From: an uncultured Pelagibacteraceae bacterium
GTDB taxonomy: Bacteria; Pseudomonadota; Alphaproteobacteria; Pelagibacterales; Pelagibacteraceae
Assembly: GCA_902634455.1 (NCBI GenBank)
Contig: CACPKQ010000009.1
Location: forward strand, 1 to 50,184
Length of the DNA stretch: 50,184 nucleotides
Direction: 5' to 3'
The notes beneath the pieces are model-generated. The model saw only the letters and a program-made list of their open reading frames with translations, searched no databases and was not told where the DNA came from. Below are positions 4,082-15,989 of the stretch, piece after piece; position 1 is the stretch's first letter, and the number at the start of each line of letters is the position of its first letter. Position numbers and translations under genes: made by a program.

Positions 4082-4654
4082 ATGCAAACGATAATAATAG
4101 AAAAGAAAAATAAAAAAAAAACAAGAATAAAAGCTAGGATAAGAAAAAATAGACAAATTATTAAAAAAAAAATAAACAATTTTTTTGATTGGGTCAAAGG
4201 AGCTGAATTAGTTAGTTTAAAAGAATGTAATACAAGTGAAGATCCTGTAAGACCAGAATTAGATAATGAATTTAGAACTAGCTATGGAAGAAAAATTTAT
4301 GGAGTAAAATATTTAAATGAGATCCATGCAATAATGTGCTTTGCATTTACGAATAAAATTCCAAAAACAGTTAAAGAATTAGACGATCTAAGCAAAGACG
4401 CATTTTTGCAAAGTGCACTTCGTGATCAAAAGGGTGGAAGAATAGCAATTGCTTATACTGTTTGGTCAAAGAAAAAAGGTGGAGGTAAGTTGATAGTTAA
4501 ACAAGTATTTAAAATGATAAAAAAATCTAATCATTTAAATAGATTGGTAACTTTATCTCCCCTTACCAAAATGGCTACTAAATTTCATTTGAGAAATAAA
4601 GCAAAACTTATAAGTGTAAATGAAACAACTCAAAACTTTGAGTATATTAATTAA
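4082..4654 (+). CDS. GNAT-like acyltransferase-fold protein, uncharacterised
   Basis: A 190-residue protein. The first 40 residues are extremely Lys/Arg-rich. The rest looks like a GNAT fold: a strand (IAIAYTVWS, 121-129), then a glycine-rich loop and helix resembling the acetyl-CoA pyrophosphate loop (KKKGGGKLIVKQVF, 130-143), then a strand/helix pair RLVTLSPLTKMATKFH (154-169). I recall similar proteins in marine phages and SAR11, but cannot verify this. The last four bases overlap the end of the convergent GMC gene. Substrate and donor unknown. Confidence 0.5.
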   Translation: MQTIIIEKKNKKKTRIKARIRKNRQIIKKKINNFFDWVKGAELVSLKECNTSEDPVRPELDNEFRTSYGRKIYGVKYLNEIHAIMCFAFTNKIPKTVKELDDLSKDAFLQSALRDQKGGRIAIAYTVWSKKKGGGKLIVKQVFKMIKKSNHLNRLVTLSPLTKMATKFHLRNKAKLISVNETTQNFEYIN

Positions 4655-6231
4655 TTTAAAATAAGATCAGAAGCTTTTTCAGCTATCATAAGCGTAGGTG
4701 CATTTAAATTTGCACTAGGAATTTCTGGCATAACTGAAGCATCAACTACTCTTAAATTTTGTATTCCTTTAACTTTTAAATTTTCATCTACAACTGCCAT
4801 TTCATCTATTCCCATCTTACAAGTCCCACATGGATGGTAAGCAGTTTCAGCATTAGATCTAATATATTCATTTAATTCTTCATCACTTTGTTTTTCTGAT
4901 CCTGGACCAACTTCTTTTCCTGCATGTTTGGCTAAAGATGGTTGAGACAGAATATTTCTTGCCACATGAATACATTCTCTTGTTTGTTTTAAATCATCTT
5001 CATCTTCTAAGTAATTAAATAATATTTTTGGATAATCATAAGGGTTAGATGAATTAAGAGTAATAGATCCTCTGCTTTTAGGATGGTTAGGACTTGCATG
5101 TAATTGATATCCATGAGAACTTGGATTAACTAAACCGTGATTAATTACGAATGATGGAAAAAAATGAAATTGTATATTTGCAATATCTCTTTCAGGTGAA
5201 GATTTAGCAAATCCACCAGCCTCCAAGTAAGATTGTGAGCATGGACCAGATTTTGATAAAAACCACTGAATACCAGCAAGTACTTTAGGAACTAGTTTTG
5301 TATATGTATATAGAGTGTCAGGAGTTTTACATTCTTGCATAATATATGTTTCTAGATGGTCTTGAAGATTTTTTCCAACTCCTTTTAAATCATGCACCAC
5401 GTTAATTCCTTTTTCTTTTAATTCATTTGCATTTCCAATTCCTGAGAGCATTAGTAACTGCGGAGAATTTATTGATCCACCACTTAATATTAACTCTTTT
5501 TTAGCATAAACTTTTTTAATTTTGTTTTTTATTTTTACTTCAACGCCAATAGCTTTTTTTCCATCAAAAATTATTTTTTCCACAAATGAATTAGAAAAAA
5601 TACTCAGATTTTTTCTATTTTTAATTGGATTTAAATAATACTTTGCTACACTTGCTCTTTCTCCTTTATGAATTGTTGTATCAAACATACCAAATCCTTC
5701 TTGATGTTCTCCGTTCATATCCGGATTAATTAAATGACCAGCTTCTGAAGTTGCTGCTAGAAAAGCTTCAAATAAAGGATTATCATTTCTAGATTGATCT
5801 ACAGGAAGCAAACCCAAAGAACCTCTATATTGATTTTCACCTCCAGACCAAGTTTCAATTTTTTTAAAGTACGGAAGAATTTTTTCATAGGACCAAGATT
5901 TTAATCCGAAGTTTTCCCATCGTTCATAATCATTTTTGTTGCCTCTTACAAAAACCATTCCATTATGGGCAGAACATCCACCAATCATTTTACCTCTTGG
6001 GCAAAACAATCTTCTATTATTTAAATGTGGCTCTGGTTCAGAATAATATTTCCAATTATATTTTGGATCATGCATAGTATATAGTAAAGCTAACGGCATT
6101 TTTACTTTCCATATGTCGCTTGAACCACCTGCTTCGAATACAGCAACCTTATTATTTTGGTCTTCTGAAAGTCTATTTGAAAGAACACATCCTGCAGAGC
6201 CAGCACCAATAATTAGATAATCAAAATTCAT
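4651..6231 (-). CDS. GMC-family FAD dehydrogenase, choline-dehydrogenase-like
   Basis: A 526-residue glucose-methanol-choline oxidoreductase. The N-terminal Rossmann motif IIGAGSAGC (7-15), the GMC signature around GKMIGGCSAHNGM, the second signature SGGSINSPQLLMLSGIG, and the catalytic AYHPCGTCKMG (H466) with N510 in NLNAPT are all present. The family oxidises alcohols to aldehydes. BetA, the closest well-known relative by motif, makes betaine aldehyde from choline. It is last in the bioY-thioesterase-TauD-HD-GMC operon, and its start overlaps the HD gene by four bases. Choline or another trimethylammonium alcohol is the favoured substrate from context, not proven. Confidence 0.8.
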   Translation of the reverse strand: MNFDYLIIGAGSAGCVLSNRLSEDQNNKVAVFEAGGSSDIWKVKMPLALLYTMHDPKYNWKYYSEPEPHLNNRRLFCPRGKMIGGCSAHNGMVFVRGNKNDYERWENFGLKSWSYEKILPYFKKIETWSGGENQYRGSLGLLPVDQSRNDNPLFEAFLAATSEAGHLINPDMNGEHQEGFGMFDTTIHKGERASVAKYYLNPIKNRKNLSIFSNSFVEKIIFDGKKAIGVEVKIKNKIKKVYAKKELILSGGSINSPQLLMLSGIGNANELKEKGINVVHDLKGVGKNLQDHLETYIMQECKTPDTLYTYTKLVPKVLAGIQWFLSKSGPCSQSYLEAGGFAKSSPERDIANIQFHFFPSFVINHGLVNPSSHGYQLHASPNHPKSRGSITLNSSNPYDYPKILFNYLEDEDDLKQTRECIHVARNILSQPSLAKHAGKEVGPGSEKQSDEELNEYIRSNAETAYHPCGTCKMGIDEMAVVDENLKVKGIQNLRVVDASVMPEIPSANLNAPTLMIAEKASDLILN

Positions 6232-6767
6232 GACAACTTTGATACCAATAGATCTTTGTAATCTTCTATAGATTTTATTTTTAAACCAATTTTTTTTGCT
6301 CCCTCATCAAATCTTCTTAGTTTTATTGAATCTTCAAAATACTTATCTTTTTCAAACTCTTTTGCTTCAGTATCGCTCATTATCCCACCTTGAAGTTTTA
6401 GACTAATTTTTGAAGCATTAGATAATATTCTATAATAACCTTTATCTCTTGCTAGATACTTTTTTGCTCTAACATGATTTTTTATTGGTCCTACAACACT
6501 TTCAATAAAATGATTTTTTAGAAAATTGTACCCTATTTTTTCGTGCATACCATCTTTATCTTGATTTACCATTTCATCAGGGTCCTCTAAAATGAAATGA
6601 CCATAATCATGAAGAAGAGAAGAGCAAATTAAATTTGTAGTACTATTATTTTTTTCTGCAAGCATTGCGCACTGTATCATATGTTCAGATATTGTGACGT
6701 CTTCACCGATATAAAGCGAAGTGTTATTATTATATTTATTTATTATTTTTTCTATTATTTTAGTCAT
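6228..6767 (-). CDS. PhnZ/TmpB-type HD-domain mixed-valence diiron oxygenase
   Basis: A 179-residue HD-domain protein carrying every residue expected of phosphonate-cleaving HD oxygenases: a Tyr-x-Gly-Glu lid (Y19, E22), H29, the HD pair (H53, D54), H75, H98 in NHVRAKKYL, and D154 in LRRFDEGAK. The segment LKLQGGIMSDTEAKEFE is typical of the family. PhnZ splits 2-amino-1-hydroxyethylphosphonate to glycine and phosphate; TmpB does the same for the trimethylated compound, giving glycine betaine. The gene begins at the stop of a TauD-type oxygenase, matching the hydroxylase-then-cleavage pairing of PhnY/PhnZ and TmpA/TmpB. The betaine-rich surroundings favour the TmpB reaction, but that is inference. 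Confidence 0.8.
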   Translation of the reverse strand: MTKIIEKIINKYNNNTSLYIGEDVTISEHMIQCAMLAEKNNSTTNLICSSLLHDYGHFILEDPDEMVNQDKDGMHEKIGYNFLKNHFIESVVGPIKNHVRAKKYLARDKGYYRILSNASKISLKLQGGIMSDTEAKEFEKDKYFEDSIKLRRFDEGAKKIGLKIKSIEDYKDLLVSKLS

Positions 6768-7597
6768 TAAATAGGCTGGTCTCCTTCTATAGCAATTCTA
6801 TCCATTATTCTTTCGTGGCCGAGACCTCTTCCAGGAAAAAAATCTGTTAAACCTTGATGCTGTGTACTTCTATTGTCCCATATAGCCACAGCATTTTCTG
6901 TCCATTTAAATCTACATGTAAAATCTAATCTTTCTTGATGTAAGAAAATTTTTTTTAAAATATCTTCACTTTCATTTTGATCCATATCTAATATTTTTTT
7001 TGTGTACATTGAATTTACATATAATATTTTTTTTCCTGTTTCAGGATGAGTTCTTATAATCGGATGTTGGTTAGAATATTCATCTAAATTTCCATTACCT
7101 TCCATTTCTTTGTATTTTTCTACGAAAGCAGCGGCACCTAATGAGCTGTGGATTGCTTTTTTATTTTTTATTTTTTCTTTTATTTTTTCATCTAGCGTAT
7201 CATACGCAACTTCCATGTTAGAAAACATGGTGTCTCCACCGACAGGGGGAATTTTTATTGATCTTAATATTATAACTTTTGTTGGCCTAACATTATAGCT
7301 AACATCTGTGTGCCATGTTTCTCCCCATTGGTGTTTTTCATTAGGTCCTTTTATTATTCTTACAATTTCTGGATATTTGTCTCTACCTTTAACGTAGACA
7401 TGTCTTTCTAAAGGACCAAAAAAATTTGCTAAATTAATATGTTCTTCTGATGTAATGTTTTGGTTTCTAAAAAATAAAACCTTGTGTTCAAGTAATAAAT
7501 CATTAATTTTTTTACAATTTTCATTAGAAGAATCTTTCAAATTTATTCCAGTTACTTCGGCTCCAAGGGCTCCAGATAATAATTTTACTTCAACCAT
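6767..7597 (-). CDS. TauD-family 2-oxoglutarate dioxygenase, partner of the HD oxygenase
   Basis: A 276-residue TauD/TfdA-type enzyme with the HxD motif WHTDVS (H96, D98), distal His in STQHQG (H247) and the C-terminal RIMDR arginines (R263, R267) that bind 2-oxoglutarate. TauD relatives hydroxylate carbon next to a sulfonate, phosphonate or similar group. Its stop overlaps the HD gene start and its start overlaps the thioesterase stop, so it sits inside one translationally coupled operon. It probably prepares the hydroxylated substrate for the HD enzyme. Taurine dioxygenase proper is an alternative, but the partner gene argues against it. Confidence 0.8.
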   Translation of the reverse strand: MVEVKLLSGALGAEVTGINLKDSSNENCKKINDLLLEHKVLFFRNQNITSEEHINLANFFGPLERHVYVKGRDKYPEIVRIIKGPNEKHQWGETWHTDVSYNVRPTKVIILRSIKIPPVGGDTMFSNMEVAYDTLDEKIKEKIKNKKAIHSSLGAAAFVEKYKEMEGNGNLDEYSNQHPIIRTHPETGKKILYVNSMYTKKILDMDQNESEDILKKIFLHQERLDFTCRFKWTENAVAIWDNRSTQHQGLTDFFPGRGLGHERIMDRIAIEGDQPI

Positions 7598-8067
7598 TAT
7601 TTTTTAAGTTTATCAGAAAAAACTAGATTATTTAAACTAAATTTAGATTTGTTTTTATTTATAAATTCATCCATAATTTTTATTTTTTCGTTCTCGAATT
7701 CTGCAACTTTTCTTTCGTTCAGATCTACATACAATGATAAAGACTCTATCGTAGACACTAAGTATCTTTTGGATTTATGAACCATTTCTAATTTATAAAG
7801 AAGTCTTTTTTTATCGTGGTCAAAATAAATTAAATTTACATCTACCTCATCACCTTCTTTAACTTCTTGATTATAAGTTATGTGTGATTCTACTACCATT
7901 GTACTTTTACTAGTTTTTTTTGCTGAGTCTTCACCCATTTTAAACTCTGTCATTAACTTTTCTGCACCGTAAACATCAAAAATTAATACATAGTATGCCA
8001 CGTTCATATGACCATTATAATCAGTCCAATCTTTAATTATTTTTTTTGAGTCTAAATGAATGGTCAT
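7597..8067 (-). CDS. Hotdog-fold acyl-CoA thioesterase, probable betainyl-CoA thioesterase
   Basis: A 156-residue 4HBT-type thioesterase. DWTDYNGHMN (13-22) is the family active-site segment, with D16 the likely catalytic acid before the central helix, and the YNGHM form resembles the thioesterase of bacterial carnitine catabolism (CdhB, or the domain fused to carnitine dehydrogenase). That enzyme releases glycine betaine from betainyl-CoA. A beta-keto acid cleavage enzyme of the CdhC type begins about 640 bases away on the other strand, which supports this role. A general acyl-CoA thioesterase remains possible. Confidence 0.75.
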   Translation of the reverse strand: MTIHLDSKKIIKDWTDYNGHMNVAYYVLIFDVYGAEKLMTEFKMGEDSAKKTSKSTMVVESHITYNQEVKEGDEVDVNLIYFDHDKKRLLYKLEMVHKSKRYLVSTIESLSLYVDLNERKVAEFENEKIKIMDEFINKNKSKFSLNNLVFSDKLKK

Positions 8068-8102
8068 TTTAATTAATAAAAATTCATTATTTTTAGATAA
8101 AT

Positions 8103-8669
8103 TTATTTACTGATATATTTTGTGATATTAGGGATAAGAGCTACAGCCAGTAATATTTTAAAAAGCTCACTCAATAAAAATGGATATAGACCCGCGGCTA
8201 AAGCTTTATCAAACCCAATGATTGAGCCTAAATAACCAACTCCAAATAAAAATATAATCAATGTTCCTATAAGCAATGATTTTAAACTCTTTAAATATGA
8301 ATTGTTATAACCAAGATCAGCAAATTTACCTATTAACCATGCCGCAAACATCATACCGTATAAATAACCTGCAGTTGGTCCAGTTAAATAAAGAAGTCCA
8401 CCACCTTTTGCAAAAACTGGTAAGCCAAGTGCACCTTCTAAAAGATATAATAACAAAGTTGTTAATGCTAGCTTTGAACCGTAGGACATACCAATAATAA
8501 AGACAACAAAAGTTTGCATTGTCATTGGTACAGGCCAAAAAGGTACTTGAACTTTTGATGAAACTGAAAGCAAAATAGTGCCTAAAAAAACTAATATAAT
8601 ATTTTTTAAATAAATATTTATTTTATAATCTGAAAGTACATTATGAATAAGAGTTGTATTATTTTTCAT
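8103..8669 (-). CDS. bioY: BioY biotin-transporter S component
   Basis: A 188-residue membrane protein with about six helices. The segment VQVPFWPVPMTMQTFVVF and the GALGLPVFAKGGG stretch followed by LTGPTAGYLYG are diagnostic of BioY, the substrate-capturing component of the biotin ECF transporter. No EcfA/EcfT genes are nearby; solitary BioY proteins have been reported to transport biotin alone. It leads the betaine operon, 35 bases before the thioesterase. Why a vitamin transporter sits here is unclear. Confidence 0.9.
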   Translation of the reverse strand: MKNNTTLIHNVLSDYKINIYLKNIILVFLGTILLSVSSKVQVPFWPVPMTMQTFVVFIIGMSYGSKLALTTLLLYLLEGALGLPVFAKGGGLLYLTGPTAGYLYGMMFAAWLIGKFADLGYNNSYLKSLKSLLIGTLIIFLFGVGYLGSIIGFDKALAAGLYPFLLSELFKILLAVALIPNITKYISK

Positions 8670-8685
8670 TATTCATTAATAATAT

Positions 8686-8693
8686 AGTATACT
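8686..8693. promoter_or_regulatory. Palindromic two-way -10 element between bioY and the cleavage-enzyme gene
   Basis: The 39-bp divergent spacer contains AGTATACT, which reads TATACT on both strands. For the + gene a TTCATT at 8665-8670 lies 17 bases upstream, and transcription would begin about 9 bases before the ATG at 8709. On the - strand the same bases would start transcription about 10 bases before bioY. Assignment is by pattern only. Confidence 0.4.
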
Positions 8694-8708
8694 TTCTAAT
8701 AAATAAAG

Positions 8709-9596
8709 ATGAACAATAAAGTTTTTATATCATGTGCTGTTACAGGGTCTGGGGACACTGCTTCAAAACATCCAGATTTACCAAAGACACCAAAACAAAT
8801 TGCAACTGCAGCAATTGAAGCAGCCAAAGCAGGAGCTGCCATAGCACATATACACGTTCGAGAAGAAGATGGAACTCCAAGTAGAAGACTTGAGCTGTAC
8901 AAAGAAGTAGTAGATAGAATTCGTTCGAGTGATACAGATGTTGTACTAAATTTAACCACTGGTATGGGAGGAGATCTAGACATAGGGCAAGGAAAAAATC
9001 CTTTAGAATTTGGTCCATTAACTGATATGGCAAATGTTATGGAAAGAATTGCTAATGCAGAAAAATTTCTACCAGAAATATGTACACTAGACTGTGGAAC
9101 TTTAAATTTTGGAGATAGTTCTGTAATCACAGTTAATACACCTAATGATTTAAGAAAAGCAGCTAAAAGATTGCAGGAGATAAATGTTAAACCTGAAATA
9201 GAAGCTTTTGATTTAGGAAACATGTGGTTTGGAGCCCAGTTATATAAAGAAGGATTATTAAATGACCCACCAATGTTTCAAATGTGCCTTGGCATACCTT
9301 GGGGAGCACCAGCCACACCTTTGGCTATGCAGGCAATGAAAGATGTAATGCCCAAAGAAGGTATATGGTCAGGTTTTGCAATTTCAAAAAACGAGATGCC
9401 ATTTGTTGCTCAAACAGTGATTATGGGTGGTAACCCGAGAGTAGGGCTTGAGGATAATTTATATTTATCCAAAGGGAAGTTAGCGACCAATGCTCAATTA
9501 GTTGAAAAAGCAATAAGAATTGTAAATGATTTAGGAGTATCAATAATGTCTCCAGAAGAAACAAGAGAAAAATTAAAATTAAAAAACTATAAATAA
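8709..9596 (+). CDS. Beta-keto acid cleavage enzyme (BKACE/DUF849), probable dehydrocarnitine cleavage enzyme
   Basis: A 295-residue TIM-barrel enzyme of the Kce/BKACE family. The zinc-binding HIHVRE (H47, H49) and the C-terminal NPRVGLEDNLY, whose Glu is the third metal ligand, are present, as are the NLTTGMGGD and GTLNFGD loops. BKACE enzymes react a beta-keto acid with acetyl-CoA to give acetoacetate and a new acyl-CoA. In carnitine catabolism CdhC converts dehydrocarnitine to betainyl-CoA. The adjacent thioesterase, thiolase and betaine importer favour that substrate; 3-keto-5-aminohexanoate is the main alternative. The next gene starts two bases after the stop. Confidence 0.85.
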   Translation: MNNKVFISCAVTGSGDTASKHPDLPKTPKQIATAAIEAAKAGAAIAHIHVREEDGTPSRRLELYKEVVDRIRSSDTDVVLNLTTGMGGDLDIGQGKNPLEFGPLTDMANVMERIANAEKFLPEICTLDCGTLNFGDSSVITVNTPNDLRKAAKRLQEINVKPEIEAFDLGNMWFGAQLYKEGLLNDPPMFQMCLGIPWGAPATPLAMQAMKDVMPKEGIWSGFAISKNEMPFVAQTVIMGGNPRVGLEDNLYLSKGKLATNAQLVEKAIRIVNDLGVSIMSPEETREKLKLKNYK

Positions 9597-9598
9597 AA

Positions 9599-10723
9599 AT
9601 GTTTAAAGCCGTTATAGCAGGATACTCTAGGTCTCCTTTTACTCCAGCAAAAAAAGGAGAATTAGTTAATGTAAAACCAGATGATTTATTGTCAGATGTT
9701 ATAAAAAATCTTATTTCTAAATCTAAAATTAATCCTAAAGATATAGAAGATGTTATTATTGGATGTGCATTTCCTGAGGGAGAACAAGGTTTTAATATAG
9801 GTAAAATAGTAACTTTTTTAAGTGGAATGAATGTAAAAACAGCTGGAATGACGGTGAACAGATGGTGTGGTTCTTCAATGCAAGCAATTCATATTGCTGC
9901 GGGAGCAATTGCTATGGGATCTGGCAAAGCATTTATTTGTGGAGGAGTGGAAAGTATGTCAAGAGTTACCACAGGTTTTGAGCCAGTTCCTTATCCAAAA
10001 TCTGAAAAAGATAATCCTCACCTATATCTTTCGATGGGTATTACAGCTGAAAATGTAGCAAAAAAATATCAATTGACCAGAAAAGAACAACAGGACTTTG
10101 CAATATCTAGCCAAGAAAAAGCAGCTGAAGCAGACTCCAAGGGAAATTTTAAAAAAGAAATTACTGTTGTTAATGGGTGTTCTAGAGATGGGAGTATAAG
10201 ACCAAATACTAGCCAAGAAGTTTTAGATAAATTAAAACTTGCGTTTGATGAAAGTGGTACAGTTACTGCAGGAACATCTTCTCCACTAACAGATGGTGCG
10301 GCAACAACATTAATATGTGAAGAACAATTTGCAAAAGATAATAATTTAGACATTCTAGCTAGAATTATTGCTACTTCAGTTGAAGGTTGCGAGCCTGAAT
10401 TAATGGGTTTAGGACCAATTGGAGCCTCTCAAAAAGCACTCAAGAGAGCAAATTTATCTATAAAAGATATTGATATTGTAGAATTAAATGAAGCATTTGC
10501 ATCTCAATCTTTAGCTTGCATTAGAGATCTTAATATCGAAAGGAAAAAAATTAATTTAGATGGTGGTGCAATAGCTTTAGGTCACCCACTCGGAGCCACT
10601 GGTGCAAGAATAACTGGAAAAGCAGCAGAATTACTTAGAAGAGAAAATAAAAAATATGCTTTAGCAACTCAGTGTATAGGTTGGGGAATGGGAATAGCTA
10701 CAGTTATTGAAACTGTAAATTAA
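9599..10723 (+). CDS. Thiolase-family acetyl-CoA acyltransferase
   Basis: A 374-residue thiolase. The nucleophilic Cys (C90 in NRWCGSS), LNEAFA, GHPLGATGAR (H329) and the second catalytic Cys (C359 in TQCIGWGMG) are all present. The last motif has Trp and Met where CIGGGQG is usual. Directly downstream of the BKACE gene, it probably processes acetoacetyl-CoA formed after the acetoacetate released by that enzyme is activated. No CoA transferase is visible nearby, so activation must occur elsewhere. The exact acyl chain preference cannot be read from sequence. Confidence 0.85.
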   Translation: MFKAVIAGYSRSPFTPAKKGELVNVKPDDLLSDVIKNLISKSKINPKDIEDVIIGCAFPEGEQGFNIGKIVTFLSGMNVKTAGMTVNRWCGSSMQAIHIAAGAIAMGSGKAFICGGVESMSRVTTGFEPVPYPKSEKDNPHLYLSMGITAENVAKKYQLTRKEQQDFAISSQEKAAEADSKGNFKKEITVVNGCSRDGSIRPNTSQEVLDKLKLAFDESGTVTAGTSSPLTDGAATTLICEEQFAKDNNLDILARIIATSVEGCEPELMGLGPIGASQKALKRANLSIKDIDIVELNEAFASQSLACIRDLNIERKKINLDGGAIALGHPLGATGARITGKAAELLRRENKKYALATQCIGWGMGIATVIETVN

Positions 10724-10745
10724 ATTTTTTTAAAAAAATATTAGT

Positions 10746-11534
10746 TTATCTATCCATTCTTATAGTGTTAGCATCTACAGGAAATACTTGACCAGAAACT
10801 CTTTCACTTTCATTTGAAATTAAAAAAGAACACATTTTAGCTATATCTTCTTCATAAACCCAAGAATTCATTGAAGTTGCAGATATAAAATCTTTTTCGA
10901 TTTCTTTTTTTGAAACTTTTAAAAATTTAGCTTTATCTCTAATAACCCTTTCCATTCTATCACCTTTAATAGTTCCTGGACAAATAGCATTAACACGAAT
11001 TTTAAATTTGCCTAATTCCATAGCTAGAGTTTTTGTGATTCCTATAATAGCCCATTTGCTCGCTGCATATGGGGAACGTAAAGAAAAACCCATAATTCCT
11101 GCAGTAGAAGAAATATTTATTATTGACCCACCTTTATTTTTTTTAAGCATAGGAATAGCAAGTTTAGTAAAATAAAAATGACTTATTACGTTAATCTTAA
11201 GTGTTTGTTCCCAATCTTTAGAAGTTAATTTTTCAATATTTCCTGTAGGACCAGCAATTCCTACATTATTTATTAATGTATCAATTTTGTTTGTTTTCTT
11301 TTTTATTTGAGCAAAAAAATTTGATACATCATTCTCATCTGATGCATCACATTCATAAATAAATAATTTTTTATTATTTAGAGGGTGTTTTTTAGCTTTA
11401 TTTATTAATTTATTATTAATATCACAAAGATATACAATTGCTCCTCTTGATAGACAAATTTTTGTTGTTGCCCAACCTATTCCTGAAGCTCCGGCTGAAA
11501 TAATAATTTTTTTATTTTGAAGACTTAACGGCAT
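10746..11534 (-). CDS. Short-chain dehydrogenase/reductase, candidate carnitine dehydrogenase
   Basis: A classical 262-residue SDR from the ATG at 11534; a GTG one codon earlier is possible. It shows the cofactor motif GASGIGW (about 15-21), NNVGIAG, the catalytic Ser in NISSTAG and the YAASK dyad (Y156, K160). An acidic residue after the second strand (LCDI) points to NAD rather than NADP. The start lies inside the end of proV by 23 bases, so it belongs to the betaine importer operon. The region has cleavage enzyme, thioesterase and butyrobetaine hydroxylase but no standard carnitine dehydrogenase, which makes this SDR a candidate. 3-Hydroxybutyrate dehydrogenase is an equally reasonable reading. 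Confidence 0.8.
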   Translation of the reverse strand: MPLSLQNKKIIISAGASGIGWATTKICLSRGAIVYLCDINNKLINKAKKHPLNNKKLFIYECDASDENDVSNFFAQIKKKTNKIDTLINNVGIAGPTGNIEKLTSKDWEQTLKINVISHFYFTKLAIPMLKKNKGGSIINISSTAGIMGFSLRSPYAASKWAIIGITKTLAMELGKFKIRVNAICPGTIKGDRMERVIRDKAKFLKVSKKEIEKDFISATSMNSWVYEEDIAKMCSFLISNESERVSGQVFPVDANTIRMDR

Positions 11535-12567
11535 CACTCATATGTTCTTTAGTTAACGCTTTTGAAAGTTCTTTTTGAGTAATATAACCTTTTACATTTC
11601 CATTTTTATCTACAACTTCACAGTTTGCATTTGAACAGACAACTTTGGGTAAAAATTCATCCAAAAATTGATCTTCTTGAACTTTAACTAAATTAGACTT
11701 ATCAATTCCATTTGTGGCATTAGCAGGCTTCATAATTATTTTTGCTTTAATTACTTTTGCACGGTTTACATCTTTTACAAAAGCCTCAACATAATCATCA
11801 GCAGGATTCATTATGATATCTATCGGCGTTCCAACCTGCACTAACCTTCCACCATTTAGTATTCCTATATGGTCACCCAATCGCAAGGATTCATCTAAAT
11901 CATGCGTAATGAAAACTATTGTTTTTTTTAATTCACTTTGAAGATCGATTAATTGTTTTTGCATATCACTTCTAATTAATGGGTCCAAAGCAGAGAATGC
12001 TTCATCCATTAGCATTATGTCAGTATTTGTAGCTAGTGCTCTAGCTAAACCAACTCTTTGTTGCATTCCACCAGATAGTTGATTCGGATACTGGTGTTCA
12101 AAACCTGTTAATCCTACAGCTTCAATCTTTTCCATAGCAGTCTTATTTCTATTTTCTGGTTTTTGTCCCTGAACTTCAAGACCATAGCCAACATTTTCTA
12201 AAACAGTTTTATGAGGAAATAATCCAAATCTTTGAAATACCATACTCATCTTATGTCTTCTAAATTCAATTAATTTTTTTTGATCAAGGTCCATCACATT
12301 TGTTCCTTCTACTGAGACTACTCCAGCAGTTGGATCAATTAATCTATTGATATGACGAATAAGAGTTGATTTTCCTGAGCCAGATAAACCCATACAAACA
12401 AAAGTTTCTCCTTCTTCAATAGATAGAGACACATTATCAAGTCCAACAGTGTGTCCAGTTTTTTCTAAAACCTCCTCTTTTGAAGCACCATCTTGAACCA
12501 TTGGAAGAACTTTTGAAGGTTGATCACCAAATATTTTATATACGTTTTTTATTTCAATTTTGCTCAT
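11512..12567 (-). CDS. proV: Glycine betaine/proline-type ABC transporter ATP-binding protein
   Basis: A 351-residue OpuAA/ProV ATPase. The N-terminal stretch before the Walker A (about 1-45, including TGHTVGLDNVSLSI) is typical of ProV. Walker A is GLSGSGKST (60-68), the signature LSGGMQQR is intact, and Walker B is followed by DEAFSALD. The C-terminal 80 residues resemble the CBS pair that senses ionic strength in this family. The order on the - strand is proX, proW, proV, SDR. The importer is likely for glycine betaine, carnitine, butyrobetaine or choline. Confidence 0.9.
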   Translation of the reverse strand: MSKIEIKNVYKIFGDQPSKVLPMVQDGASKEEVLEKTGHTVGLDNVSLSIEEGETFVCMGLSGSGKSTLIRHINRLIDPTAGVVSVEGTNVMDLDQKKLIEFRRHKMSMVFQRFGLFPHKTVLENVGYGLEVQGQKPENRNKTAMEKIEAVGLTGFEHQYPNQLSGGMQQRVGLARALATNTDIMLMDEAFSALDPLIRSDMQKQLIDLQSELKKTIVFITHDLDESLRLGDHIGILNGGRLVQVGTPIDIIMNPADDYVEAFVKDVNRAKVIKAKIIMKPANATNGIDKSNLVKVQEDQFLDEFLPKVVCSNANCEVVDKNGNVKGYITQKELSKALTKEHMSDAVKSSK

Positions 12568-12570
12568 GTT

Positions 12571-13590
12571 TTATAATTTTATTTTTTTTTTATGATGTGT
12601 TCTTTCCTGAATTTTTTCTCCATAAGATTGTGTAATTCGATCGAATATAATTGCTAACAAAACAATTGCAATACCTGCTTCTGTTGCCATTCCCACATTT
12701 AATTGTTGTAAACCTAATAAAACTTCGTCTCCAATTCCTCTTGTTCCTATCATTGAAGCAATTACAACCATTGCTAGTGCCATCATAGTACACTGGTTAA
12801 TTCCTTGCATAATATTTGGTAATGCCAACGGTAATTGTACTCCCCATAACTTTTGTTTTTTATTTGCACCAAAGGCTTCTGCTGCTTCAATTACCTCTTT
12901 ATCAACTAATCTGATCCCAAGATCTGTTAATCTTATCAATGGAGGTACTGCATATACAAATATTGCAAATATTGCTGGCACAGCTCCTAAACCGAATAAT
13001 AAAATTCCTGGTATTAGATAACAAAAACTAGGAATTGTTTGCATTAAATCTAGAATAGGTAATAAAGCATTTCTTACTTTTTTATTTCTTGCCATCATTA
13101 TACCTACTGGAATACCAATTATTAAACAAAGCAACATTCCAATAACAACAATACATGTTGTCATAATACACTTGTCCCAATATCTAGGACTAAGGAAACC
13201 AAGAAAAAAAACACAAAAAGCAACCATAATTGTTGTTCCCATATTTCTTCCACTAGCGAAATAACAAAGGGTAATCACCCCTGCCATTAATAGTGGCCAT
13301 GGTAGGCCGACCATAAAATTCTTCATTTGTGTATAAAGGCCTAATAAAAAATTATTAATTCCTTCAAAGAACATTCCATACTCTTTTATAAGTGTATCAA
13401 AACCTTCATTTAAGTAAGGCATTAAAGGAAGATCTAGCCATTTAGGCCAATTTCCTAACCAAGAAAAATCTGTAAATAAAACCGAAACACTCTCTGGTCT
13501 ATATTTTGAACTTGTATATGCAATTACTACCATTGCAATAAAAGCAATCAAATATAACGAATAAAAAATATGTTTCTTATATTTTCCCAT
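12571..13590 (-). CDS. proW: Glycine betaine/proline-type ABC transporter permease
   Basis: A 339-residue permease with about seven or eight helices. The EAA loop region (EAAEAFGANKKQKLWGVQLPLALPNIMQGINQ) and GIGDEVLLGLQQLNVGMATEAG at the end are hallmarks of ProW/OpuAB. The first 85 residues contain one helix and an amphipathic region, as in ProW. It ends 3 bases before proV and starts just after a terminator hairpin that follows proX. Confidence 0.9.
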   Translation of the reverse strand: MGKYKKHIFYSLYLIAFIAMVVIAYTSSKYRPESVSVLFTDFSWLGNWPKWLDLPLMPYLNEGFDTLIKEYGMFFEGINNFLLGLYTQMKNFMVGLPWPLLMAGVITLCYFASGRNMGTTIMVAFCVFFLGFLSPRYWDKCIMTTCIVVIGMLLCLIIGIPVGIMMARNKKVRNALLPILDLMQTIPSFCYLIPGILLFGLGAVPAIFAIFVYAVPPLIRLTDLGIRLVDKEVIEAAEAFGANKKQKLWGVQLPLALPNIMQGINQCTMMALAMVVIASMIGTRGIGDEVLLGLQQLNVGMATEAGIAIVLLAIIFDRITQSYGEKIQERTHHKKKIKL

Positions 13591-13600
13591 TTATACTTTC

Positions 13601-13634
13601 TTATAAAAAACTAAGAGCCCTTACGGGCTCTTAG
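13601..13634 (-). terminator. Intra-operon terminator between proX and proW
   Basis: A perfect 10-bp stem (CTAAGAGCCC at 13611-13620 with its complement at 13625-13634, four-base loop) is followed on the - strand by a T-run (13605-13610). It sits after the binding-protein gene, so most transcripts would end here and proX message would exceed that for the permease and ATPase. Confidence 0.8.
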
Positions 13635-13655
13635 TATTAAGAATTATTTTAAAAA

Positions 13656-14681
13656 TTAAAGCGATGCTTTAACTTTTTTAGCAACATCTGCAGGAACCCA
13701 TTTAGTCCATGAGCTAGAACCTTTTAAAAAGTTTTTAGCAGTTGCTTCCATATCTCCACCTGATTCATCCATATAAAAAGCAAGTGATTTGTTCACTTCA
13801 GCAGTAGGCAAAGTATATGCTTTTATAAAGTCGATTATCGGTTTATTTTCTGGTTTGTTAGCAAAAGTAGTTGATGCAGATTTTGTTAAAGCCATATCCA
13901 CATAAGCGCTTGCACATGTATCTGTGTAAGCATCTGGTCCATCAGCTTTAATTTTTTCAACAACAGCCATCATTTTTGTCCAGCAAGCATTGTCGTAAGC
14001 AGGTTCTTTAAGTTGAACTAGATCAACTTTTCCCATTAAACCTGTTGGCGTCCAGTAGTACGAAAATACTGGCTTGCCTTTTTTAAATGCACCTGCGATT
14101 GCAGCATCTAATGCCCCACCTGATCCTGGGTCAAAGTTAGTGTAATATTTATCTAAACCATAAACTTTGTGCTTCACTAAGTTAATAGTGTAGCAAGTCC
14201 ATCCAGAAATACAGCTTGTCATTCTACCTTTTCCTGGAGATTCTGGATCAGCAAAAAGTTTTGCGATTTCAGGCTTCATCATATCTTCCACACTTACTAA
14301 ACCATATTTGTCAGCAGTAGGTTTATCTACGTAGAAACCTTGTGTAGAAGAAGGAGTATTAACTCCAAGTTCAACAATTTGTCCTTTTGCAACAGCTTCC
14401 TCGTGCATTTGAACAATATTATCTCTCCAAACTTCTGTTATGATATCTAATTGCTGATCATAGTGAGCAGCCATTATTGGAGAAGTACTTCCTTTTGTTA
14501 CTTCAACATTGCATCCATATCCTTTTTCAAGAATATATCCAACAATTGCAGTATGCACGTTAGCACTATCCCAATCGAAATCTCCCAAATGTACTTTGCA
14601 AGCAGCATTCGCACTTGTTGTGCCTAATGTAGTTACCGCTATAAAAGCAATTGAAAGAAATAGTTTTTTTAGAAATTTCAT
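13656..14681 (-). CDS. proX: Glycine betaine/choline-type substrate-binding protein
   Basis: A 341-residue periplasmic binding protein of the OpuAC/ProX class. Residues 1-27 form a signal peptide (a Lys-rich start, a hydrophobic core and a cut after SANA). The mature part has the family's DFDWDSANVHTAI opening and a Trp/Tyr-rich region (SYYWTPTGLM, later DNACW) able to build the aromatic box that holds a trimethylammonium group. Four or more Cys suggest disulfides. A strong GGGAG ribosome site (14688-14692) precedes the ATG. The exact ligand is unknown. Confidence 0.9.
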   Translation of the reverse strand: MKFLKKLFLSIAFIAVTTLGTTSANAACKVHLGDFDWDSANVHTAIVGYILEKGYGCNVEVTKGSTSPIMAAHYDQQLDIITEVWRDNIVQMHEEAVAKGQIVELGVNTPSSTQGFYVDKPTADKYGLVSVEDMMKPEIAKLFADPESPGKGRMTSCISGWTCYTINLVKHKVYGLDKYYTNFDPGSGGALDAAIAGAFKKGKPVFSYYWTPTGLMGKVDLVQLKEPAYDNACWTKMMAVVEKIKADGPDAYTDTCASAYVDMALTKSASTTFANKPENKPIIDFIKAYTLPTAEVNKSLAFYMDESGGDMEATAKNFLKGSSSWTKWVPADVAKKVKASL

Positions 14682-14858: not shown

Positions 14859-15989
14859 ATGTCAGTTAAACTTTCAAAAGTTTCAAAAAATGGTTCAGGA
14901 TTAAATATTGAATGGAGCGATGGAAAAAAAAGTAATTTTAACTTCATGTGGTTAAGAGACAATTGTCCATTAGACATGGATGAAGATACTAGAGAAAGAA
15001 CATTCAATATATTAGAAGTTTCAGAAAATATTCATCCCAAAGAATACAAAATTAATGTGGATGGTAAATTAGAAATTGAATGGAGTGAAGGTAATCATAC
15101 TAGCTTTTATGATCCTAATTGGCTTAGAAAAAATTGTTACACATTAAAAGAAAAATATATTTCTCCTTATAAATTATGGGATAGTAAACTAAATTCAAAT
15201 CTTGAATCTATATCTATTGATTACGAAAATATAATGCAAAGTGATGAAGACCTGATCCAATGGCTTAATCTTCTACATGAAAAAGGTTTTTCAATTGTAA
15301 AAAACTCTCCTACTGAAAAAAAATCAGCTCTTCCACTTTTAAATAGAATTAGTCATATCAGGGAAACTTTTTTCAATACGCCTTTTGAAGTGATTAGTAT
15401 TCCTAAACCAAATAACCTTGCTTACACTTCAAAACGTTTAGTAAATCATATGGATTTACCATATTATGAGTTACCACCTGGTTATCAGTTTTTACATTGC
15501 CTTGTTAATAATGCTGAAGGAGGAATGTCAAGAGCGGTAGATGGTTTTTTTGTTGCAGATTATTTGAGAAACAATGATCCCGAAACATTTAAGACTTTAA
15601 CTAGAGTGCCCGTTGTATTTGTAAACAGAGATTATACACAAGATAAAAAAAGATTGTACCACGCTCAAGAAATAACTTTAAACAAAGATGGCGATTATAA
15701 CGATATAAGATTTAGCGTACCAACCATGGGAATTATGGATTGCCCACCAGAAGATATGGAGAAGTTTTATAAAGCTCATTATAAATTTGGTAAACTTTTA
15801 CACGATAAAAGATTTATGGTGGAGTTTAAATTAAAAGAAGGTGATATATTTTGTTTTAATAATAGAAGAGTTCTTCACGGAAGAACAGAATATGATCCAA
15901 ATACTGGGCACAGACACCTTCAAGGATACTATTTAGATAGAGATGAAATAATCAGTCGACTTCATTATCTTAAAAAAGCTGAATTTTAA
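14859..15989 (+). CDS. Gamma-butyrobetaine hydroxylase-like 2OG oxygenase (BBOX/TmpA type)
   Basis: A 376-residue enzyme with the DUF971 N-terminal domain (EWSDGKKSNFNFMWLRDNC, second copy of the W/WL pattern near 75-90) and a TauD-type catalytic domain: H197 and D199 in NHMD, distal H340 in RVLHGR, and R352. Butyrobetaine hydroxylase makes L-carnitine; TmpA, a relative, hydroxylates trimethylammonioethylphosphonate. The zinc-binding Cys cluster of the N domain is reduced to C36, with H80 kept. Two aromatic-cage positions that are Tyr and Trp in the human enzyme are F172 and F176 here, while Y189 is kept. So the substrate is a trimethylammonium compound of uncertain identity. It is divergent from proX and convergent with the phosphodiesterase. 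Confidence 0.8.
   Translation: MSVKLSKVSKNGSGLNIEWSDGKKSNFNFMWLRDNCPLDMDEDTRERTFNILEVSENIHPKEYKINVDGKLEIEWSEGNHTSFYDPNWLRKNCYTLKEKYISPYKLWDSKLNSNLESISIDYENIMQSDEDLIQWLNLLHEKGFSIVKNSPTEKKSALPLLNRISHIRETFFNTPFEVISIPKPNNLAYTSKRLVNHMDLPYYELPPGYQFLHCLVNNAEGGMSRAVDGFFVADYLRNNDPETFKTLTRVPVVFVNRDYTQDKKRLYHAQEITLNKDGDYNDIRFSVPTMGIMDCPPEDMEKFYKAHYKFGKLLHDKRFMVEFKLKEGDIFCFNNRRVLHGRTEYDPNTGHRHLQGYYLDRDEIISRLHYLKKAEF

Follow-up and report, generated by a model that had tools for sequence, protein, structure and literature searches.

Gene content of the cluster

The window, by which we mean the whole 50,184-nucleotide stretch of DNA analysed here, carries a chain of overlapping minus-strand genes followed by further genes of the cluster:

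4651..6231, minus strand: GMC oxidoreductase, choline-dehydrogenase subfamily (NF002550, 733 bits, cut-off 605)
6228..6767, minus strand: putative HD-domain oxygenase, PhnZ/TmpB clade, 179 aa (alignment, tree, predicted fold)
6767..7597, minus strand: TauD-type Fe(II)/2OG oxygenase, 276 aa (family match, residue alignment)
7597..8067, minus strand: 4HBT_2 thioesterase (ThioE), probable betainyl-CoA thioesterase (TAATG overlap with the TauD-type gene)
8709..9596, plus strand: BKACE, probable 3-dehydrocarnitine cleavage enzyme (family match)
9599..10723, plus strand: acetyl-CoA C-acyltransferase (thiolase; TIGR01930, 414 bits, cut-off 241)
10746..11537, minus strand: short-chain dehydrogenase of the cluster (family searches, neighbourhood comparison)
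11512..14681, minus strand: ProV-ProW-ProX-type betaine ABC importer (inspection; kept in many relatives)
14859..15989, plus strand: gamma-butyrobetaine-dioxygenase-like (GBBH-like) 2OG oxygenase (GBBH-like_N + TauD), not TmpA

A second TAATG joins the TauD-type gene to the HD gene, and ATGA joins the HD gene to the GMC gene. The HD gene is also preceded by a Shine-Dalgarno-like stretch, AGAAGGAGA; together with the TAATG overlap, this bears out the first-pass annotation in its claim that the HD gene is translationally coupled to the 2OG oxygenase gene. The ProV-ProW-ProX names are putative assignments made by inspection.

The HD and TauD-like genes sit inside a carnitine-to-glycine-betaine gene cluster, and these surroundings are seen in relatives as well as in the window. 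The window's BKACE is 52% identical to a BKACE that adjoins carnitine 3-dehydrogenase in another alphaproteobacterium (locus L141), and the thiolase probably handles the acetoacetate that BKACE yields. The thioesterase aligns with positions 345-475 of NF005716, the C-terminal part of a carnitine 3-dehydrogenase fusion model, at 61 bits, far under the cut-off of 592. The GMC protein scores 666.5 bits against the BetA equivalog, below its cut-off of 732.1. As outlined in PMC12482172, carnitine is turned into betaine in Pseudomonas aeruginosa and Sinorhizobium meliloti by carnitine dehydrogenase, BKACE and betainyl-CoA release. BKACE and the thioesterase represent that pathway in the window; family searches recognised no carnitine dehydrogenase among the genes adjoining BKACE there, and relatives' clusters contain one. 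Unlike the described pathway, the window's cluster also holds the TauD-type, HD and GMC genes.

The HD protein and the 2OG oxygenases

Alignment, tree and predicted fold all place the HD protein with the PhnZ/TmpB HD oxygenases. Its lid is Y19-x-G21-E22, its iron ligands are H29, H53, D54, H75, H98 and D154, and its substrate-side residues H57, K102, S119, Q126 and R151 are common to PhnZ and TmpB. Y19, E22, H29, H53, D54, H75, H98 and D154 align with PhnZ Y24, E27, H34, H58, D59, H80, H104 and D161. As set out in PMC8177086, the six-ligand motif H...HD...H...H...D marks HD mixed-valent diiron oxygenases, and a YxxE lid is a feature of PhnZ and TmpB that MIOX lacks. The lid (Tyr-x-Gly-Glu), the six ligands and the residues on the substrate side are all kept in 37/37 aligned orthologues, the window's own counted; a 38th (from G389) has an in-frame stop and was left out. 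The HD alignment, cleared of duplicates and of sequences under 140 aa, kept 97 sequences plus 2 references. Thus the lid and metal ligands reported in the first-pass annotation are indeed where it placed them. H57, the fifth histidine, likewise occurs in all 37; a fifth histidine is described as invariant across the TIGR03276 clade (PMC11203657), and we read that residue as PhnZ H62.

Searches with phmmer match the HD protein to PhnZ at E 2.4e-27 and to TmpB at E 1.4e-26. The phylogeny that the earlier annotation had suggested places it as a neighbor of the PhnZ and TmpB clades, with an SH-aLRT of 91 where they join and of 100 for the HD set itself; this is a quick tree without bootstraps, built without MIOX or hydrolases, and MIOX was compared by fold instead. 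The predicted fold matches both TmpB and PhnZ at VIA Z 26.4 and MIOX, at rank 6, at 11.3; all remaining chains among the matches listed reach Z ≤9.6. We rejected myo-inositol oxygenase as the identity of the HD protein: the lid is present, the phmmer matches up to E 1 include no MIOX, and the fold score is only 11.3. The HD protein scores 170.1 bits against TIGR03276 (NCBIfam Phn-HD; cut-off 214.6), 146.3 against the TmpB equivalog NF049941 (cut-off 300) and 133.6 against the PhnZ1 hydroxymethylphosphonate dioxygenase model NF052439 (cut-off 300), reaching none of these thresholds. We do not take the TIGR03276 cut-off as defining, because in L141 even a protein above the TmpB equivalog cut-off falls short of it, at 204.8 bits.

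The TauD-like protein matches PF02668, the TauD/TfdA superfamily, at 191.6 bits (cut-off 27). Its H96, D98, H247 and R263 correspond to the iron ligands and 2OG arginine of E. coli TauD (H99, D101, H255 and R266) in 58/58 family sequences, so that the 2OG oxygenase does have the intact ligands first ascribed to it. Two fragments of locus L038 and one duplicate had been removed from this alignment. The equivalents of TauD H70 and R270, which we take to bind sulfonate, are the anion-binding H66 and R267, again kept in 58/58. Unlike E. coli TauD, the protein has W91, G92 and V69 in place of D94, N95 and Y73, presumably the contacts to the taurine amine; these are replaced in all 58, and the score against the taurine dioxygenase model NF007104 is 215.2 bits for a cut-off of 313. 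Carboxylate-type relatives such as RdpA score well against the protein. A structure model built from 27 sequences is poor (mean pLDDT 60.8).

The cluster's GBBH-like protein was considered as a TmpA and rejected: it falls outside the TmpA clade (SH-aLRT 97), scores 282.8 bits against a cut-off of 400, and is missing the TmpA phosphonate residues named in PMC9296572. The equivalent of TmpA R288 is present in 18/18 TmpA-type proteins and in 0/10 cluster GBBH-like proteins. A TmpA elsewhere in HD-bearing genomes was sought among 20 of the PF02668 matches, drawn from HD-bearing genomes (G022, G052, G390, G134, G304, G141, G122, G199, G015, G028, G352, G305, G288, G253) and HD-less sources (G121, G105); one from G283 (L207, 248 aa) was dropped, and none of the 19 of at least 330 aa fell in the TmpA clade. 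The window's genome, which is 81% complete, yields PF02668 matches at E 1e-10 for the TauD-type and GBBH-like genes only. Since its other PF02668 protein is not a TmpA, the TauD-like protein is the best local candidate for a hydroxylase. The contrast first drawn between this partner and the 2OG enzymes of known pairs needs qualifying: for TmpA it is one of subfamily, since the superfamily is shared, and the window protein closest to TmpA is the one combining GBBH-like_N with PF02668.

The known systems frame the comparison. TmpA/TmpB of Leisingera caerulea converts 2-trimethylaminoethylphosphonate to glycine betaine and phosphate. The window's HD protein shares TmpB's clade, fold, ligands, lid and substrate-side residues, and its gene too has a 2OG oxygenase gene immediately upstream. 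TmpAB also adjoins carnitine/betaine genes: the L141 row comprises TmpA (529 bits, cut-off 400), TmpB (312, cut-off 300), a GBBH-like gene, BKACE and carnitine 3-dehydrogenase (707, cut-off 592). In contrast to that system, the window has a short TauD-type enzyme upstream rather than a GBBH-like TmpA, its HD protein stays below the TmpB cut-off, and HD and TauD genes often occur apart. PhnY*/PhnZ of HF130_AEPn_1, in which PhnY* is a PhyH-type enzyme, converts 2-aminoethylphosphonate to glycine and phosphate. The HD protein resembles PhnZ in alignment, predicted fold and the identical Tyr-Ile-Gly-Glu lid, whereas the window's 81%-complete genome has no PhyH match at E 0.001. The methylphosphonate route of Gimesia maris, GmPhnY/GmPhnZ1, has the HD superfamily and a two-step logic in common with the window, as described in PMC10574752; the HD protein differs from GmPhnZ1 in lying below the PhnZ1 cut-off.

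Occurrence of the HD and TauD-type genes

Class, order and families f1 and f2 serve here as kinship labels, and many of the surveyed genomes are incomplete assemblies. Among 397 genomes of the order, HD and TauD occur together in 48, including G236 (TauD in two pieces) and G159 (TauD cut), and are adjacent on one strand in 48/48, with 2-18 nt between matched ends. HD occurs without TauD in 10/58 HD genomes (both figures counting G389, with its in-frame stop), and TauD without HD in 41/89 TauD-carrying genomes of the window's family. The pairing first proposed thus stands as an adjacency and fails as an obligate one. Indeed, at 23/24 loci from family genomes without this HD type, TauD lies directly beside GMC, 23 of them contiguous, and seven loci have the order ThioE-HD-GMC without TauD. 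Because these 23 and 7 loci are contiguous, assembly gaps are not the cause. Along the TauD tree (a quick tree without bootstraps), HD presence switches at least seven times, and TauD therefore has a role independent of HD. Near-identical TauD sequences are found both with and without HD, and of the compared E. coli TauD positions none changes in step with HD presence among family TauDs.

Nevertheless, the two genes co-occur above expectation in the 120 genomes that have the cluster BKACE (HD versus TauD 48/40/9/23; odds ratio 3.07, p 0.013 in a Fisher test that ignores ancestry). The six family f2 loci that were read have TauD away from any cluster of this kind. TauD adjoins HD in 0/40 class-level loci and in 0/24 phylum-level loci, the latter spanning only ~1.5 kb on each side. 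A scan of genome contigs gave two loci only (L003 and L004), and 27 plasmid records hold an HD relative, all at <60% identity. In the openly licensed literature we recognised no paper describing a TauD/HD pair.

A candidate phosphonate route and its alternatives

Our proposal draws on the observed sequences, gene order, active-site conservation, clade, predicted fold and co-occurrence. The HD gene product would be a mixed-valent diiron oxygenase that cleaves an alpha-hydroxyphosphonate oxidatively, and action on that class of substrate is probable. The carnitine-to-betaine surroundings, and the company that TmpA/TmpB keeps with carnitine genes in L141, favor a phosphonate bearing a trimethylammonium group, with betaine as the product; a trimethylammonium alpha-hydroxyphosphonate is thus somewhat favored as the HD substrate. 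The likeliest in this operon would be (R)-1-hydroxy-2-trimethylaminoethylphosphonate, cleaved to glycine betaine and phosphate. The adjacent TauD-type oxygenase would supply it, replacing TmpA in this lineage and holding the phosphonate where TauD holds the sulfonate of taurine, placing the alpha carbon above the iron; we consider its role as hydroxylase partner an evenly balanced question. Betaine from this route would join the pool that the surrounding cluster fills from carnitine. Taken as a whole, TauD-type hydroxylation followed by HD cleavage of trimethylaminoethylphosphonate to betaine and phosphate is put forward tentatively. Weighing against it are the genomes in which TauD or HD occurs without the other, the f2, class-level and phylum-level loci, the HD scores below the TmpB, PhnZ1 and Phn-HD cut-offs, and the small number of tested HD-bearing genomes with a PhnD-like importer protein (3/26). 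The earlier suggestion of a route to phosphate plus betaine thus keeps its products, which the betaine setting and the L141 precedent favor; an obligate pair is not supported. It had also noted that no phosphonate importer was visible; a phosphonate-type ABC importer in fact lies elsewhere in the same genome.

The distribution of the genes also accommodates a single betaine operon in which TauD and HD work independently, a reading that is doubtful yet deserves serious weight. TauD would act on a sulfonate or sulfate betaine, e.g. N-trimethyltaurine or choline-O-sulfate, giving betaine aldehyde for the GMC enzyme to oxidize, and HD would be a dispensable addition, cleaving a hydroxyphosphonate provided by the GBBH-like protein, another hydroxylase or uptake. 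The TauD-GMC loci, the loci with HD alone, the gain or loss of HD between TauD and GMC beside near-identical TauDs, and H66 and R267, which suit sulfonate as well as phosphonate, all agree with this; the excess co-occurrence of HD and TauD and the absence of TmpA's phosphonate residues from the GBBH-like protein speak against it. Our literature search found no sulfonate betaines linked with TauD. On a further reading, which we regard as unlikely, a single operon for betaine catabolism was upgraded in modular fashion from sulfur to phosphorus. Its TauD-type enzyme would bind compounds that combine a quaternary amine with an anionic head group; hydroxylation of a sulfonate betaine would by itself free sulfite and betaine aldehyde, whereas the matching phosphonate betaine would end as a 1-hydroxyphosphonate that is stable. 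Insertion of HD behind TauD would then have given some genomes phosphate release to glycine betaine.

Other alternatives change the substrate or the chemistry. It is improbable that the same reactions serve a different phosphonate, such as methylphosphonate, 2-aminoethylphosphonate or the latter's monomethyl or dimethyl derivatives, and that the betaine operon is a mere neighbor: the lid is that of PhnZ, which acts on hydroxylated 2-aminoethylphosphonate, and PhnZ-like enzymes are described as varying in substrate despite a similar residue set (PMC11203657), but the carnitine/betaine context runs throughout the operon, TmpAB joins carnitine genes elsewhere, and it is the order's second Phn-HD type, not this one, that adjoins PhnX, PhnW or PhnD-type genes at the three loci scanned for families (L068, L074, L075). 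MIOX, the next fold match, shows that C-C cleavage is within the reach of HD oxygenases (PMC8177086); a TauD that alpha-hydroxylates a carboxylate betaine such as beta-alanine betaine, and an HD that cleaves the alpha-hydroxy acid to glycine betaine as MIOX would, could dispense with phosphonates altogether. The RdpA-like scores and the finding of a PhnD-like importer protein in just 3/26 HD-bearing genomes tested, none above the family cut-off, fit this pathway, but with all five substrate-side residues of PhnZ and TmpB kept and MIOX far more distant, we judge it very unlikely. That the HD protein is a phosphohydrolase, or otherwise no oxygenase, is scarcely credible: in Pfam it matches the generic HD family only, and predicted HD hydrolases share its fold at Z ≤8.2, whereas lid, six ligands and fifth histidine are kept, and the tree, hydrolases not included, and the fold both join it to PhnZ/TmpB.

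The phosphonate-to-betaine route suggests a candidate means by which these small-genome bacteria free phosphate from betaine-like phosphonates. A marine survey attributes 45% of marine phnZ sequences to Pelagibacterales and treats phnZ as 2-aminoethylphosphonate catabolism (PMC9381506); phnZ is also described as dividing into subclades that differ in substrate (PMC8316502). If the window belongs to that order, as its small genome and its relatives suggest, part of the Pelagibacterales phnZ signal may represent a betaine-linked enzyme with a TauD-type neighbor rather than 2-aminoethylphosphonate use. The operon offers a concrete substrate for testing, and such a route would link phosphorus release to osmolyte catabolism.

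Gene layout and the HD protein

The HD gene and its neighbor, a TauD-family 2-oxoglutarate (2OG) oxygenase gene, lie within a longer cluster in the window:

4651-6231, GMC oxidoreductase, downstream of HD
6228-6767, minus strand, HD-domain protein, 179 aa
6767-7597, minus strand, TauD-family 2OG oxygenase, 276 aa
7597-8067, thioesterase, upstream of TauD; aligns with the end of the carnitine 3-dehydrogenase fusion model
8709 (start), BKACE, in the surrounding cluster
9599 (start), thiolase, in the surrounding cluster
11512-14681, importer whose genes we take to be of the ProVWX type, in the surrounding cluster
14859-15989, GBBH-like oxygenase, in the surrounding cluster

The two genes and their translational coupling, proposed in the first-pass annotation, are borne out. 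In the four-gene chain thioesterase-TauD-HD-GMC, TAATG overlaps join thioesterase to TauD and TauD to HD, and ATGA joins HD to GMC; a Shine-Dalgarno-like AGAAGGAGA lies upstream of HD. At 642-1607, a DIOX_N/2OG-FeII_Oxy oxygenase gene adjoins an EamA-like transporter gene and is kept near the operon in many relatives.

Among solved structures, PhnZ (E 2.4e-27) and TmpB (E 1.4e-26) come closest to HD in sequence. By NCBIfam thresholds HD is none of Phn-HD, TmpB or PhnZ1/HMP, since its scores of 170, 146 and 134 bits lie under the respective cut-offs of 214.6, 300 and 300. When 97 homologues are aligned with two references, all 37 HD orthologues (window counted) match PhnZ Y24, E27, H34, H58, D59, H62, H80, H104, K108, S126, Q133, R158 and D161, among which H62, K108, S126, Q133 and R158 presumably bind substrate. 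A review (PMC8177086) describes the lid and six ligands of HD oxygenases as binding substrate and iron. Equivalents of the lid and metal residues on which the PhnZ/TmpB-type assignment was originally based are thus universal in the orthologue set.

Sequence and predicted fold also place HD inside the oxygenase clade, where an outside position had been named as the outcome that would overturn the assignment. A quick tree groups the 37 orthologues together (SH-aLRT 100) and attaches this group to the clades of PhnZ and TmpB and to a further set, most of whose members are paired with TmpA (SH-aLRT 91). The AlphaFold2 model (mean pLDDT 94.7) was compared by VIA-align with TmpB (Z 26.4, rmsd 1.6, 168 residues), PhnZ (Z 26.4, rmsd 1.4, 171 residues) and MIOX (Z 11.3, rmsd 3.0, 149 residues); all remaining listed chains gave Z ≤9.6. 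HD is very probably an oxygenase that cleaves alpha-hydroxyphosphonates. The order also has a second Phn-HD type (loci L068-L085, at about 9.7-10.6 kb; 40-45% identical), which lies away from the HD set in the quick tree. It has Asn or Asp at the lid glycine position (17/17), and PhnX, PhnW or PhnD-type genes lie nearby in the three loci scanned.

TauD and the choice of hydroxylase

TauD scores 191.6 bits against Pfam TauD and 215 against the taurine dioxygenase equivalog, under its cut-off of 313; its AlphaFold2 model is poor (pLDDT 60.8). Referred to E. coli K-12 TauD, 58 of 58 family sequences keep the iron ligands, the 2OG arginine, H70 and R270 (window H66, R267), and all carry W91, G92 and V69 for D94, N95 and Y73. 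We take H70 and R270 to bind the sulfonate and the other three to lie at taurine's amine end. On these residues, the pocket can be read as retaining an anionic head-group site and having lost the ordinary amine end; any aromatic site for a quaternary amine is conjectural. The compared residues do not tell TauDs with HD from those without.

The cluster's GBBH-like protein was considered as a TmpA and rejected, as it falls outside the TmpA clade. TmpA contacts phosphonate through N187, N287 and R288 (PMC9296572). The R288 position is Arg in 18/18 TmpA-type proteins versus 0/10 cluster GBBH-like proteins, and the Asn-Asn-Arg positions read Ser-Val-Pro in the window protein. BBOX cage Tyr177 is Phe in 10/10 cluster proteins. 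From these substitutions, the substrate of the GBBH-like protein may be neither gamma-butyrobetaine nor the phosphonate. The window's genome (81% complete) yielded no PF02668 protein beyond these two at E 1e-10 and no PhyH match at E 0.001. With the GBBH-like protein lacking TmpA traits, TauD is therefore the best local hydroxylase candidate. A PhyH match was absent from 4 of the 10 HD-only genomes. TauD is a plausible partner of HD, with the chances about evenly balanced.

Occurrence and gene order

Among 397 genomes of the order, HD (E below 1e-50) occurs in 58 and TauD (E 1e-60 or better) in 115, 89 in the window's family and 26 in another. The proposed pairing holds in part: the genes are adjacent in all 48 genomes having both, but HD occurs without TauD in 10 and TauD without HD in 41 of the 89. 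Of 120 genomes that carry the BKACE of the cluster, 48 have both genes, 40 TauD only, 9 HD only and 23 neither (odds ratio 3.07, p 0.013, without correction for ancestry). The 61 annotated loci of the window's family (window excluded) read TauD-HD-GMC (29), thioesterase-TauD-GMC (18), thioesterase-HD-GMC (7), other TauD-GMC (5) or lack GMC (2). Across the TauD tree, HD switches between present and absent at least 7 times, and well-supported branches force at least 4 of these changes; the TauDs of G269 (with HD) and G255 (without) are nearly identical. In the other family, TauD adjoins a conserved gene of ~290 aa, EamA-like by eye, outside any such cluster (six loci read).

Beyond the order, TauD adjoined HD in 0 of 40 class-level loci (87/385 genomes matched at E 1e-15, window's genome counted) and 0 of 24 phylum-level loci (28/299 at E 1e-20, own and class genomes counted); G424 and G549 belong to both sets. 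A TmpA relative was adjacent to HD in 18 of the 40 and present in 11 of the 24. From these order-level, locus, tree, class- and phylum-level counts, the TauD-HD arrangement occurs, within the genomes sampled, in this lineage only; it is kept together where both genes are present, yet is not obligate. The HD gene of G389 (L067:9771-10286) has an in-frame stop, with no adjacent thioesterase and no GMC in the locus, and looks like a decaying gene; at about 8882-9700 of L038, the TauD gene is broken into two reading frames, and the HD frame that follows it is open.

Phosphonate import and the carnitine/betaine setting

The first-pass statement that no phosphonate importer is visible must be qualified: the same genome has a PhnD-PhnC-PhnE-type operon at another site (contig C6, L190:9825-12254). 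This phosphonate-binding-protein ABC operon follows an XRE-like regulator (L190:8626-12254) and sits among genes resembling those for surface polysaccharides; the regulator and the polysaccharide genes were identified by eye. Of the genomes tested, only 3/26 with HD and 2/10 without it gave a PhnD-like protein, none above the family's cut-off. The cluster's betaine importer could transport a phosphonate that bears a quaternary ammonium group.

In relatives, a gene resembling that for L-carnitine dehydrogenase stands beside BKACE (at L044, 330 bits to NF005471, under the cut-off of 414). Carnitine dehydrogenase and BKACE, together with release from betainyl-CoA, make up a known route to glycine betaine (PMC12482172). 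In many relatives, CitE/RipC-like lyase and class II aldolase-like genes lie upstream of the thioesterase in the same operon (L044:6376-7236, L054:11588-12313). A glutathione-dependent formaldehyde-activating gene adjoins the carnitine-dehydrogenase-like gene at L054:14178-14585 and may point to formaldehyde from demethylation.

A precedent is found at L141 (genome G681, 6242-11638), where genes for TmpA (529 bits, cut-off 400), TmpB (312, cut-off 300), a GBBH-like protein, BKACE and carnitine 3-dehydrogenase (707, cut-off 592) stand in a row. Phosphonate-betaine and carnitine routes are thus joined in that genome too. The solved TmpB comes from Leisingera (PMC8177086); we infer that L141 is alphaproteobacterial because G418, of the same class, has a TmpB 82% identical to it.

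No paper was recognized as naming a TauD/HD pair in searches of CC-licensed literature. The HD/TauD pair is a variation on the known scheme of a 2OG oxygenase plus an HD oxygenase. The betaine context and L141 favor a trimethylammonium phosphonate as the substrate of HD.
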